Assembly (NCBI RefSeq): GCF_011044495.1
Contig: NZ_CP049143.1
Span: 5,952,001-6,016,000, forward strand
DNA: 64,000 nucleotides
Direction of reading: 5' to 3'
Source of the DNA: Roseimicrobium sp. ORNL1
GTDB taxonomy: Bacteria > Verrucomicrobiota > Verrucomicrobiia > Verrucomicrobiales > Verrucomicrobiaceae
Shown: positions 24,814 to 29,131 of the stretch, in pieces
Numbering within the stretch: position 1 is the first letter of the stretch
How the letters are laid out: each line of letters begins with the position of its first letter
The notes under the pieces: model-generated
Databases searched by the model: none
What the model was told of the DNA's origin: nothing
Seen by the model: the letters and a program-made list of their open reading frames with translations, nothing else
Translations under genes and position numbers: made by a program

Positions 24814-25176
24814 CTACGGCTCTGTGGGAATAGGCAACCCATGCATCTTGAGGAACGACAGCTTGTCCCAATACCCACGCTGAAATTTGATGCGCCCCTC
24901 CACCACGTGGAAAAATCCACACCCGCGGAGCCCGAGAGGATCCTTCCACTCCAACACGGCCCACTCTCCGTCGCACAAGATGTTGTCTGGAATACACACC
25001 ATTTCCGCCTGGGCAAACTCACGGCGAAACATCTCACGAATCGCCTCCTTTCCCTCCACTGGCGCATTCGCCACCTGATGATTCACTGCGTCATCATGGT
25101 AGAGCGCGACAAGTTTGTCCGCATCGGCAGCATTGAAAGCATCGATCCATGATCCGAGAGTTTCGCGGGGACTCAT
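24814..25176 (-). CDS. SnoaL/NTF2-like small protein
   Basis: 120 residues from the ATG at 25176 (an extension to 25200 is possible but adds Cys/Met-rich sequence). The pattern SPRETLGSWIDAFNAADADKLVALYHDDAVNHQVANAPVEGKEAIREMF is the typical N-terminal half of SnoaL-like proteins, cone-shaped NTF2 folds acting as isomerases, hydrolases or binding proteins on small molecules. The C-terminal half (WAVLEWKDPLGLRGCGFFHVVEGRI) completes the fold. Substrate unknown. Confidence 0.8.
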   Translation of the reverse strand: MSPRETLGSWIDAFNAADADKLVALYHDDAVNHQVANAPVEGKEAIREMFRREFAQAEMVCIPDNILCDGEWAVLEWKDPLGLRGCGFFHVVEGRIKFQRGYWDKLSFLKMHGLPIPTEP

Positions 25177-25247
25177 GCAACCGTGCATACACGCAAGCAC
25201 CTCACGGCACCAGAGCTGGATGATTCACTCATGTCTTGTTCGGACTT

Positions 25248-27839
25248 TCAGTGCGGCGGCATCTTGGAATACCAAGCCTTGATCGCACTCGCGAATTCAG
25301 GCGGCATGATGCCAGCGATCTCCCTGGGAATATCCGGCGGGGACAACCAAACGCGGTAGCTGTCGCCAGCCTCCGCACCCAGTTCATGCCACGCCAGGTA
25401 GCTTGGCGATCCCAGCCAGAGACAGTTGGTCCCCTGATTCCAGAAAGCGACGAAAGGCTCATCCTCACGGCCCAGGGGGCCGTAGCCTCGCAAGGTTTGT
25501 GTGGCATCGGCATGCTTCCATACGATTTGATAGCGTCTCTGTCCTGGCTGGTTGGGGATGGACCTGTCGGGGGACGGGATGAGGAGCGAGACCCCACCCG
25601 CCAGTGGGTGGGCACCTTCCGCGGTGATGAGTTTCGATTCTCCCGGCACTGGCCCCAACTCCGCCATCGTGACCGGGCCCAGGGTGACCATCTGCGTTTC
25701 GATGCGCGGCACCCCGGCATCCCGAAGTCGGCGGGCCACCTCCTCGACTCTCTGATGCGGACAGCCACGTGGGGCCACCACCCGCGCCATGAATCCCGCA
25801 TCCTCCACGCGAGAGATGCTCACCTGCACCACGCTCATGAGTTGCAGAGCCTGCATGGCTTTGTTGATCTGCTCCATCGGAATATCTTTGCCGACCTTAA
25901 GCTGCACTTCGACATCGGGCGCTGGTAAGACGACCTGCGGCGGGAGAATCTCCGGAAATGCCTCTCGCGCCGGAGCTGGCGCCTTCCGCACTGTAAGAAA
26001 CCACAGGCCCATCAGCATCGGGGTAATCATCAGGAATCCCACCACGGCCACCACCAGGCAGCCAATCCCCACGATCAATCCATGATTTCCACCCGATGCC
26101 ACAGCGGCGGCCTGCTTTGCTCCGGGCACGGCACCCGAGCGCAGCCAGCGCCACGTGGCGTGCATGATCCACCACACGGCCCCACCAAAGGCCACTACTG
26201 CCAGCGGGCCTGCGCCGCGAACCAAGCCAAGGACGGCGCAAATCAGCAGCATCAGCAGGGCCGCCAGTCCTCCTCCCAGGAAACACGGCCACACCCATGA
26301 GGCAAACAATCCGCTCGCGAGATGCTCAAACGGCGGCCCGCGCCGGCGCTGGGCAGACAGGTGGGACCAGCCCAGCAGCGTGCCAGCGATCATGCAGCCC
26401 AGTTCCAGTACGAGACAGAATGCCAGAATGGGCCCCAGCACCACCGCCTCCCAAGGTGTGCTGGAAATTCCGAAGGGTACCACCACCTTCGGTGAAGTTG
26501 CGGGTAGATTCCCCTCTCCATGGCCGGCGGGTTCATGCCCCGACGCTGCGGGAGGATTCACAACAACACCGCCACTGCTGAACGTCCCGCTGCCGTTGAC
26601 ATGAAACGATGCCGTCGGGGTGCTCATGGAAAGGGAGCGAACCCCTCCAAACACAATCAACAGCAAAAAGGGAATGAGCAGACTCACGGACACCATCACC
26701 GCCGCCGCTCGCGGATACGTTCGTGATGGTGCCGCGACCAAACGACGCGGCATCGGAGGCGGCGGGGACGGCGGCATCGGAGGCACAGGCGGAGCACTTC
26801 CAGCAGCACCACCACCGGAGCTCACCACACCCCCCACGCCTGCTAGATCTGGAGGAGAAGCAGCCTCATCATCATCGGCTGCATCCGCCTTCCCCAGCGT
26901 CATGATCTGCGTACGCAAATCCGCCGCTGTCTGCCAGCGCAGCTCGGGAGAGCGGTCCAGAGCACGCAACACGATTTCATCCAGCCGCACATCCACATGA
27001 ACTTTTTTCGATGGTGGCTCAAGTCGCTTCGCGGGCAGCTCTCCGGTGAGCATCTCATACAGCACCACGCCGAGTGAATAGATATCCGCCCGATGGTCCG
27101 TGCGCTGGGGTTGCTCGCGCTGCTCGGGCGCCATGTACTGCGGCGTGCCGGCAGGCTGCGAGTCGCCGGGCACCACTTCATCCGTGGGTGTATCGAGCAT
27201 CTTGGCGATGCCGAAGTCGGCGATCTTGATCCGCCCATCTTTGCTCAGCAGGAGATTTTCCGGCTTGATGTCTCGGTGCACAATGCTGTGCTCATGCGCG
27301 TACTGGAGCGCCTCGCAGATCGGTGGCACCACCGTCAGCGCCTGCTCTGGCGTGAGTTTTCCACCGCGCATGGCCTGGCGGAGATTCACGCCGTCCACGA
27401 ACTCCATGAGCAGGTAGAAAAAGGACCCTGCCTGCCCGAAGTCATGCACCGTGACGATGTGCGGATGACTCAGCGCCGCCAGCGCCTCCGCCTCCCGGGC
27501 GAATCTCGCGGCAAACGCAGGATCCTGCACCCGCTCCGGAGCCAGCAGCTTTAGCGCAACGAAACGCTTCAGCGATTTCTGCCTCGCCTTGTATACCACC
27601 CCCATGCCTCCACGCCCGAGACACTCCAGGATTTCAAGCTGTGGAAAATGCGGTGCAAGCTCCTCCGTAGTGGGTATCGGGACAGGAGGTGGCGAAGGTT
27701 GCGTCGCATCCAGGCCAGTGAGCAAGGTGGGTTCCTCCAGGTTCAGCGCCATCAGGCAGCGCGGGCACAAACCTTCAGGAGCAGAGGCTGGTAGAGGCGC
27801 TCCGCATTTGGGACATGCGTGGGATGGTGTGTCGCTCAC
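25248..27839 (-). CDS. transmembrane Ser/Thr protein kinase with N-terminal zinc ribbon
   Basis: 863 residues, GTG start at 27839. A zinc ribbon CPKC...CPRC (residues 9-28) is followed by a Hanks-type kinase domain (about 68-315): Gly loop GRGGMGVVYKA, Lys97, HRD with Asp190, DFG at 208-210, and APE in YMAPEQ. Gly/Pro/Ala-rich linker follows (about 330-370), then four to five membrane spans (first about 379-399, last near 620-645) and a C-terminal ~210-residue domain of alternating beta/alpha character. Kinase residues are complete, so it should be active. It follows the ECF sigma gene by 71 bases and shares its promoter-like element, suggesting a sigma-kinase signalling pair. Confidence 0.93.
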   Translation of the reverse strand: MSDTPSHACPKCGAPLPASAPEGLCPRCLMALNLEEPTLLTGLDATQPSPPPVPIPTTEELAPHFPQLEILECLGRGGMGVVYKARQKSLKRFVALKLLAPERVQDPAFAARFAREAEALAALSHPHIVTVHDFGQAGSFFYLLMEFVDGVNLRQAMRGGKLTPEQALTVVPPICEALQYAHEHSIVHRDIKPENLLLSKDGRIKIADFGIAKMLDTPTDEVVPGDSQPAGTPQYMAPEQREQPQRTDHRADIYSLGVVLYEMLTGELPAKRLEPPSKKVHVDVRLDEIVLRALDRSPELRWQTAADLRTQIMTLGKADAADDDEAASPPDLAGVGGVVSSGGGAAGSAPPVPPMPPSPPPPMPRRLVAAPSRTYPRAAAVMVSVSLLIPFLLLIVFGGVRSLSMSTPTASFHVNGSGTFSSGGVVVNPPAASGHEPAGHGEGNLPATSPKVVVPFGISSTPWEAVVLGPILAFCLVLELGCMIAGTLLGWSHLSAQRRRGPPFEHLASGLFASWVWPCFLGGGLAALLMLLICAVLGLVRGAGPLAVVAFGGAVWWIMHATWRWLRSGAVPGAKQAAAVASGGNHGLIVGIGCLVVAVVGFLMITPMLMGLWFLTVRKAPAPAREAFPEILPPQVVLPAPDVEVQLKVGKDIPMEQINKAMQALQLMSVVQVSISRVEDAGFMARVVAPRGCPHQRVEEVARRLRDAGVPRIETQMVTLGPVTMAELGPVPGESKLITAEGAHPLAGGVSLLIPSPDRSIPNQPGQRRYQIVWKHADATQTLRGYGPLGREDEPFVAFWNQGTNCLWLGSPSYLAWHELGAEAGDSYRVWLSPPDIPREIAGIMPPEFASAIKAWYSKMPPH

Positions 27840-27845
27840 GTTCGA

Positions 27846-27874
27846 TTCCTAAGTACGGACGGACAAACGTTACA
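27846..27874 (-). promoter_or_regulatory. ECF-type promoter of the kinase gene, leaderless arrangement
   Basis: On the minus strand TGTAACGTTT begins at -35 from the kinase GTG, and TAGGAA (within CTTAGGAA) lies at -12 to -7, with a 17-base spacer. The spacing is identical to that upstream of the sigma gene. AAC in the -35 element is typical of ECF promoters. If real, transcription starts at or next to the start codon. Confidence 0.6.
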
Positions 27875-27910
27875 CAATTGGCCGCGATGTGGCACCATTT
27901 TGCTGCCCCA

Positions 27911-28681
27911 TCATGGGGAAGTGACACTGCCATGGGCGAGCACCGTGATCAGATGCCGGATTTCATCTTCCAGGTCCTCCTCGTTCGCCACCGTTTGCGC
28001 GATCTCTTCGCGGAAGATTTCCCGGAAGCGCTTTCGAAGCCGGTGCACCGCCACACGCGCGGCCCCTTCGGTGCTGCCCAACTGTGCAGCGAGGTCTGCG
28101 TAGGAGTTTTCTCCGCGTGGAGCCACCAGTTGAGGTTTCAGAACCGTGAAGTCGTGCTCGCGCCCCGATCGCTCAAATTCTGCACGGAGCCTGCCGAGAG
28201 TTTGCTCCAGAAGCGTCAGCGCCCAGCGACGGTCATACGCCTCATCTGCCGAGGCCTGCGGTGAGGTTTCTTCACGATAAAGCTTTTCACCCAGTACCGT
28301 ATCCAGCGGCACGGCATGCTGCCCACCTCCACGCTTCAATCGGCGTGAGCGGTCCCATTCGTTGGCCAGATGCCGCTGAAACGCCATCAGCATGAACTGG
28401 CGAAAGCGTCCCCGCTCCTGCTGCACCGCCTGGAGGAATCCTTTCTCCAGGAGTCTTGCGAAGAATCCCTGCGTGCCATCTTCTGCGTCCTGGGGACTGT
28501 GCCCGCGCCGCCGGGCGTAGATGTACAGCGGCTGCCAGTAGGTCCTGCACAGGAACTCCATCGCCTGCTGTGCATGGTCATTCCCCACGTCCCGTGCCGC
28601 AAGCACCACAGACCACCGCGTGGTCAGAAAGAGCGTTTCATGTCGGAATGATTTTTGCGCAGCGTCGTGATCCGAAGCCAT
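27911..28681 (-). CDS. ECF RNA polymerase sigma factor (STK-associated type)
   Basis: 256 residues. Region 2 is visible around 37-105 (AMEFLCRTYWQPLYIYARRRGHSPQDAEDGTQGFFARLLE), and region 4 near 195-235 (SYADLAAQLGSTEGAARVAVHRLRKRFREIFREEI). The N-terminal FLTTRWSVVLAAR segment and the extended length are typical of planctomycete/verrucomicrobial ECF factors found next to Ser/Thr kinases. No anti-sigma gene is adjacent; the kinase gene downstream is the presumed partner. Upstream, TGTAAC-N17-TATGAT sits at exactly -35/-10 from the ATG, suggesting autoregulation. Confidence 0.92.
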   Translation of the reverse strand: MASDHDAAQKSFRHETLFLTTRWSVVLAARDVGNDHAQQAMEFLCRTYWQPLYIYARRRGHSPQDAEDGTQGFFARLLEKGFLQAVQQERGRFRQFMLMAFQRHLANEWDRSRRLKRGGGQHAVPLDTVLGEKLYREETSPQASADEAYDRRWALTLLEQTLGRLRAEFERSGREHDFTVLKPQLVAPRGENSYADLAAQLGSTEGAARVAVHRLRKRFREIFREEIAQTVANEEDLEDEIRHLITVLAHGSVTSP

Positions 28682-28687
28682 CCCCGG

Positions 28688-28716
28688 ATCATAAGCTCTC
28701 TGGAGGAAACGTTACA
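28688..28716 (-). promoter_or_regulatory. ECF-type promoter of the sigma gene, leaderless arrangement
   Basis: Minus-strand TGTAACGTTT starts at -35 from the sigma-factor ATG. TATGAT lies at -12 to -7, 17 bases after TGTAAC. The ten-base upstream element and CTTA at -14 to -11 are shared with the kinase promoter. The gene probably drives its own transcription; the leaderless start is inferred from spacing. Confidence 0.65.
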
Positions 28717-28795: not shown

Positions 28796-29131
28796 ATGAA
28801 CTACATCGAACTCCCCCACAACAAGAAGCTGAACCTCCTCAACGAACATGACGGTGACTGGGAAAATCTGGAGCAGAGCAAGTGGTGCCTGCACTGCAGC
28901 CAGAGTTTTACCGGCCTCGCGGCTCGTGTTTGGAAAGATGCGGAGGATGGCCGCCTGTGGCTGGAATGCGGCACGCCGGGCTGCGATGGCTCCCCCATCG
29001 ACTGGGCACCCTATCCCTGGTGGGACGACAATCATCCCGCCACGATTGAATATCACAAAAAGAATCCCCGATCCGAAGACGGACCGGGGTTCCTGGATGA
29101 TGATTTGGAGGATGAAGACGTGAAGCCTTGA
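28796..29131 (+). CDS. small zinc-ribbon-like protein, hypothetical
   Basis: 111 residues from the ATG at 28796; longer in-frame starts overlap the sigma-factor promoter region. Cys31-x2-Cys34 (WCLHC) and Cys58-x4-Cys63 (CGTPGC) could bind a metal. A Trp/Pro-rich stretch (SPIDWAPYPWWDDNH) and an acidic C-terminus follow. The gene is divergent from the sigma-factor gene across about 115 bases. Domain type suggests nucleic-acid or protein binding, but no family or function is known. Confidence 0.65.
   Translation: MNYIELPHNKKLNLLNEHDGDWENLEQSKWCLHCSQSFTGLAARVWKDAEDGRLWLECGTPGCDGSPIDWAPYPWWDDNHPATIEYHKKNPRSEDGPGFLDDDLEDEDVKP

Follow-up and report, generated by a model that had tools for sequence, protein, structure and literature searches.

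A putative TGTAAC-type promoter element precedes both a putative ECF sigma factor gene and the adjacent Ser/Thr kinase gene of Roseimicrobium sp. ORNL1

Results

Our analysis of a 64,000-nucleotide stretch of Roseimicrobium sp. ORNL1 (contig NZ_CP049143.1, positions 5,952,001 to 6,016,000; hereafter the window) suggests that two adjacent minus-strand genes are transcribed from promoters of one and the same type. The first gene (27911..28681, ATG start) is predicted to encode an extracytoplasmic function (ECF)-type sigma factor of 256 residues, its superfamily being assigned by sequence and fold, and the second (25248..27839, GTG start) encodes a Hanks-type Ser/Thr kinase of 863 residues (Pkinase, 2.9e-52). 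Both are preceded by the same arrangement of two boxes, and with a probability of roughly 0.78 we consider these to be the -35 and -10 boxes of promoters read by the adjacent sigma factor, which would activate its own gene and that of the kinase.

The decamer TGTAACGTTT begins 35 bases 5' of the sigma factor ATG at 28681 as well as of the kinase GTG at 27839 (minus strand, 28716-28707 and 27874-27865) and is separated from each start codon by 25 bases, exactly as claimed in an earlier note made from the letters of this DNA. Direct reading also bears out its placement of CTTA at -14 to -11 before both genes, with TATGAT (sigma) and TAGGAA (kinase) at -12 to -7. The putative sigma promoter consists of the -35 element TGTAAC at 28711..28716 (28707-28716 with the adjoining GTTT) and the -10 element TTATGAT at 28688..28694; the kinase's own putative promoter consists of TGTAAC at 27869..27874 (27865-27874 with GTTT) and TTAGGAA at 27846..27852, and on both sides the -10 element lies 16 bases after TGTAAC. 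A putative ECF -35 box of the AAC type stands upstream of both genes, as had been proposed. The spacers and flanks of the two sides are unlike each other, so that it is the architecture that is conserved, and a duplicated segment as the origin of the two elements was rejected.

The two elements are not a product of chance. The 7.96 Mb genome of the strain contains the decamer four times (5 for the reversed-pattern control), twice at this locus and twice antisense within long open reading frames (ORFs), and the genome of the sister species contains it twice, both times at this locus (control 6); the window itself holds only the two exact copies and one copy with a single mismatch. The pattern TGTAAC-N16-TTAKGA occurs twice in each of these two genus genomes, always before the genes discussed here (control 1 and 1). 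The genome scan proposed in the earlier note was carried out as well: its spaced pattern, which includes GTTT, matched the own genome twice, both times at this locus, and the sister species twice before the same genes, with 0 matches in the 66 other family genomes (68 in total). Judged by the relatives, the element is TGTAAC-N16-T(T/G)A, and the pattern with GTTT is confined to the two genus genomes among the 68. When own and sister species are compared on the kinase side, the boxes agree at 18/18 bases (10/10 plus 8/8), the spacer at 7/11 and the upstream flank at 25/38 gapped columns, the last count replacing an ungapped 14/36.

Homologues of the sigma factor were present in 58 of the 68 family genomes at E <= 1e-40, among the matches listed. 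We examined 102 sigma-match loci (40 + 2 from homologue searches and 60 further listed matches by descending score); a kinase match lay within the fetched stretch in 83 of them, in 80 on the same strand. Sixteen loci, the window gene included, form a monophyletic clade A (support 0.78), whose boundaries we set by our own judgement from the tree. In all 16 loci a hexamer, exactly 16 bases and then TTA or TGA precede the sigma and the kinase gene alike. A search of the 150 bases preceding the protein match for the stricter GTAAC-N16-T(T/G)A places it before 12/16 sigma and 11/16 kinase genes of clade A, compared with 0/73 sigma and 1/56 kinase genes in loci outside clade A and its sister clade B. 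However, clade A, on which the hexamer-N16-T(T/G)A rule was counted, is also the source of this rule, and the comparison is therefore descriptive. The chance of this pattern per region in dinucleotide shuffles was <= 0.004. Eight loci of another genus keep TGTAAC invariant 5' of both genes with drifting spacers, TTATGAT likewise precedes the sigma genes of loci L024, L026, L028 and L053, and the kinase -10 boxes of relatives read TGAAGAA or TGAACTA. The earlier note let its proposal depend on conservation of the element in relatives; the same layout is found in 16 related loci, and the autoregulated sigma-kinase circuit that it had put forward is well supported by it.

Changes of the hexamer roughly track residue 210 of the sigma factor, although the co-variation is partial. 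This residue belongs to the region 4.2 recognition helix (residues 205-218, EGAARVAVHRLRKR, codons at 28028..28069 of the minus strand), the predicted reader of TGTAAC. All 11 loci in which both promoters have GTAAC carry V here; the three in which GCCAC precedes the kinase carry S, and the two CCAAC loci carry A. The aligned residue in E. coli RpoE is S172, presumably a residue of the -35 interface. Hexamers other than GTAAC are mostly also matched within a locus (sigma/kinase): TGCCAC/TGCCAC in L024, CGCCAC/CGCCAC in L026, and TCCAAC/CCCAAC in L004 and L012 (P 0.045 and 0.02), where the kinase is divergent.

The exact -35 geometry described in the earlier note holds within the genus, that is, in our strain and its sister species, but not as a general rule. 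In clade A the distance from element to start is 35-41 in 16/16 kinase and 14/16 sigma genes and 67-69 in the two remaining sigma genes, and it is equal for both genes of one locus in 4/16 loci; several of these starts were chosen by judgement, in five kinase genes another in-frame start lies at 32, and three loci were counted by hand. Strict leaderless spacing as a conserved rule was rejected because of this variation and the two distant sigma genes. The start codons in the window are fairly secure: the sigma frame has no ATG, GTG or TTG from its upstream stop to the ATG at 28681, and a stop codon leaves only 9 bases of the kinase frame open 5' of the GTG at 27839. ATG stands at both start positions in the sister species as well, though the sigma frame there (L011) holds two TTG codons further upstream.

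The usual spacing of ECF promoters would put the 5' end of the transcript near the start codon here. Transcripts of the genus would begin at the start codons or within about 3 bases of them, and this promoter spacing makes leaderless messenger RNAs plausible for both genes. Alternatively, the AGGA within the TAGGAA upstream of the kinase might represent a Shine-Dalgarno core. Such cores precede 8 of the 45 long ORFs of the window against 12% expected by chance, no clear excess in a rough count for which starts were picked mechanically, that of the kinase wrongly; so few sites suggest Shine-Dalgarno-poor initiation. Some Verrucomicrobia are reported to be Shine-Dalgarno-poor in passages of PMC10783764.

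By sequence and structure model, the product of 27911-28681 is a member of the ECF sigma superfamily. As a single sequence it matches TIGR02937 below threshold (E 1.4e-9, 37.8 bits, cut-off 42.9), whereas in an alignment of 27 relatives Sigma70_r2 is matched by 25 and Sigma70_r4_2 by 12, and a profile search of the PDB retrieves chains of ECF SigE at 7e-5. Foldseek returned no match at E <= 0.001 for the structure model (pLDDT 79). In a structural second look the nine best rows were all group IV sigma factors with Z 8.0-9.9, values that alone are modest for a helical protein, with rmsd >11 in some rows owing to differently placed domains. Region 2.2 harbors a DAED motif, the codons of which, together with those of G69-T70 (residues 65-70), lie at 28472..28489 of the minus strand; D65, A66, D68 and T70 are invariant among 27 aligned sequences, and T70 is one candidate site for phosphorylation. 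By eye, the kinase shows a Cys motif at its N terminus, CPKCG..LCPRC, and its second half contains hydrophobic stretches.

None of the three neighbouring ORFs that were scanned matched an anti-sigma family. A small divergent ORF of the plus strand (28848-29123, 91 residues, Cys pairs by eye, no Pfam match) shares the intergenic region with the sigma promoter, and a gene for a SnoaL-like protein (24817-25200) lies directly downstream of the kinase gene on the same strand.

A scan with one mismatch for further sites in the genus gave 5 matches in the own and 8 in the sister genome, compared with 40 and 42 for the reversed control. Among the listed matches only the L161/L168 pair looks orthologous: around position 1501 it has a 43-base patch with TGTAACGATGCGGAT that is 91% identical between own and sister species and lies near the beginning of an ORF in the opposite orientation. 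In L161 a mechanically listed same-strand ORF of 501 residues begins with a TTG inside the pattern; no counterpart was present among the five longest ORFs of L168. The pair was not counted as a third regulon member, although it may be one. A search based on the -10 box, AC-N14-GCTTATGATGA, gave one site in each of nine genomes (reversed control 3). Three of these sites belong to sigma promoters of clade A (L026, L024 and L053), and in a cursory look none of the six others precedes a sigma homologue; one of these six (L149) lies 47 bases before an ORF of 494 residues.

Among the loci examined, all of those listed but L141, nine from as many genomes of another genus have in common an upstream region around position 1500 that reads TTGACAGAAAAATGTAAC...TGAAGTA or nearly so (L119, L121-L123, L126, L129, L144-L146). 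Here TGTAAC-N16-TGAAGTA stands 73-83 bases 5' of a conserved gene, the product of which has about 300 residues, starts with MKSLFYTI and shows an N-terminal hydrophobic stretch by eye. This region is possibly a further ECF promoter or a housekeeping one. The gene was rejected as a third target because in four of these genomes (G028, G035, G044 and G050) the best sigma match, at E 9e-48 to 5e-46, is not a close homologue. There may be a larger regulon with looser boxes.

Discussion

The sigma gene has a putative promoter of its own type upstream, as is the case for autoregulated ECF sigma factors. We infer that the sigma factor binds both promoters, as well as the transcription start sites, the sign of the feedback and a modification of the sigma factor by the kinase. 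The circuit could work as follows. A basal transcription of the sigma gene would come first, perhaps driven by the housekeeping sigma factor, since the sigma promoter scores 9/12 against the sigma-70 consensus. The sigma factor so produced would then increase transcription of both its own gene and the kinase gene, the latter from the second promoter within the 71-base gap between the two genes. The kinase, in turn, may tune or inhibit the sigma factor, or it may act on other targets.

One could argue that the promoters are read by a paralogous sigma factor, for instance that of clade B locus L006, whose kinase gene also has TGTAAC; the sigma protein has 8 matches in its own genome, itself included. 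Clade B, the sister clade (13 loci, support 0.985), carries GTAAC-N16-TTCAGGA before 11/11 detected kinase genes (L006, L014, L029-L031, L038, L054, L055, L057, L059, L060) and before 0/13 sigma genes, at a distance of 52-56 bases from the kinase start in the six loci measured. The recognition helix is similar in most of its members, EGAxKVA(V/I)HRLR, and the -35 specificities of the two clades may overlap. However, the -10 boxes are specific to the clades, T(T/G)A in one and TTCAGGA in the other, with no overlap between them, and a paralogous reader is in our view improbable. Since clade B has the kinase box and lacks the sigma box, ECF-type control of the kinase does not appear to be always tied to autoregulation of the sigma factor.

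A second explanation, to which we give only a small chance, is that the housekeeping sigma factor transcribes both genes; the hexamer would then be a generic -35 box, with TATGAT as the -10 box of a sigma-70 promoter. The TTATGAT of the sigma promoter does resemble such a box, the 9/12 match to the consensus was the one site found where shuffles predict 0.4, and several clade B sigma genes seem, by eye, to carry a box of the TTGAC type. On the other hand, the TAGGAA of the kinase promoter was not reported by the sigma-70 scan, relatives have TGAAGAA or TGAACTA in this place, and the exact pattern is limited to two sites per genus genome, which is unlike a housekeeping box. Least probable of all is an operator of another regulator that co-regulates both genes, as the palindrome AACGTT, which TGTAACGTTT contains at the same position before both genes of the genus, is not what the relatives examined keep: they retain TGTAAC and the 16-base spacing to a second box, with hexamer changes that roughly follow the recognition helix of the sigma factor.

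Besides the sigma-70 likeness of the sigma promoter and the descriptive nature of the clade A count, several observations weigh against a promoter pair read by the adjacent sigma factor. A minus-strand scan of the gap between the genes gave no terminator-like site, and therefore the kinase may also be co-transcribed with the sigma gene. Nearly the whole upstream region is conserved on the sigma side (flank 33/37 gapped columns, spacer 10/11, own versus sister species), so this side gives little footprint, and it is the kinase side and the more distant relatives that supply most of it. The pairing of hexamers is not uniform either: L053 is unpaired (CGTAAC before sigma, CGCCAC before the kinase, P 0.22), the pairing in L028 is weak when taken alone (P 0.06), and in L004 a second hexamer pair ties with the chosen one. 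V210 also occurs in sigma factors without GTAAC promoters (L041, L070 and L005, for example), and this residue would not be sufficient for GTAAC recognition. Finally, the loci are related to each other, and the independent hexamer changes are few.

Our preferred reading, that of two promoters under the adjacent sigma factor, may be taken one step further, to a closed two-gene circuit in which the sigma factor is dedicated to itself and the kinase and the output is protein phosphorylation instead of a regulon. We regard this extension as doubtful but worth stating. If it were true, transcription would set the abundance of the kinase as a switch, and gain or loss of the own ECF box at the sigma gene, as between clades A and B, would toggle the system between self-amplifying and externally driven forms. 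ECF sigma factors that bear DAED and neighbour a Ser/Thr kinase gene are a recognised class. In the present locus family the promoters of both partners are defined, position 210 is a candidate specificity residue and a sister clade is wired differently, and these features make the logic of ECF-kinase pairs directly testable in reporters. In the titles and the beginnings of abstracts of the papers listed we found nothing on this locus family or on ECF promoters of Verrucomicrobia, which is no proof of absence.

The closest known arrangement is the adjacency of an ECF sigma factor gene and a Hanks-type kinase gene in ECF43, represented by EcfP-PknT of Vibrio parahaemolyticus and EcfK-PknS of Xanthomonas citri. 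According to passages of PMC8999054 and PMC13147305, other residues take the place of DAED in region 2.2 of these proteins, and phosphorylation there activates EcfP, with a linker site as a further target in EcfK. The sigma factor of the window, in contrast to the uncharged residues and phospho-acceptor Thr that define ECF43, has DAED at residues 65-68; thus phosphorylation may not be needed for its core binding, unlike that of EcfP. The window pair shares its kinase linkage with ECF59, ECF61, ECF62, ECF217 and ECF283, and PMC8999054 lists planctomycete examples for four of the five and states that DAED, or a motif like it, is retained outside ECF43, whereas PMC8103513 describes a serine replacement in ECF59. 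The latter source puts autoregulated ECFs at about 55%. As in their operons, an AAC-type -35 box lies upstream of the sigma gene here; unlike in these operons in general, the -10 box has TTA or TGA and not CGT, and the partner is a kinase that has its own copy of the promoter. ECF-kinase pairing and ECF autoregulation are both already known, and this locus is a fresh example of them rather than a new type of circuit.

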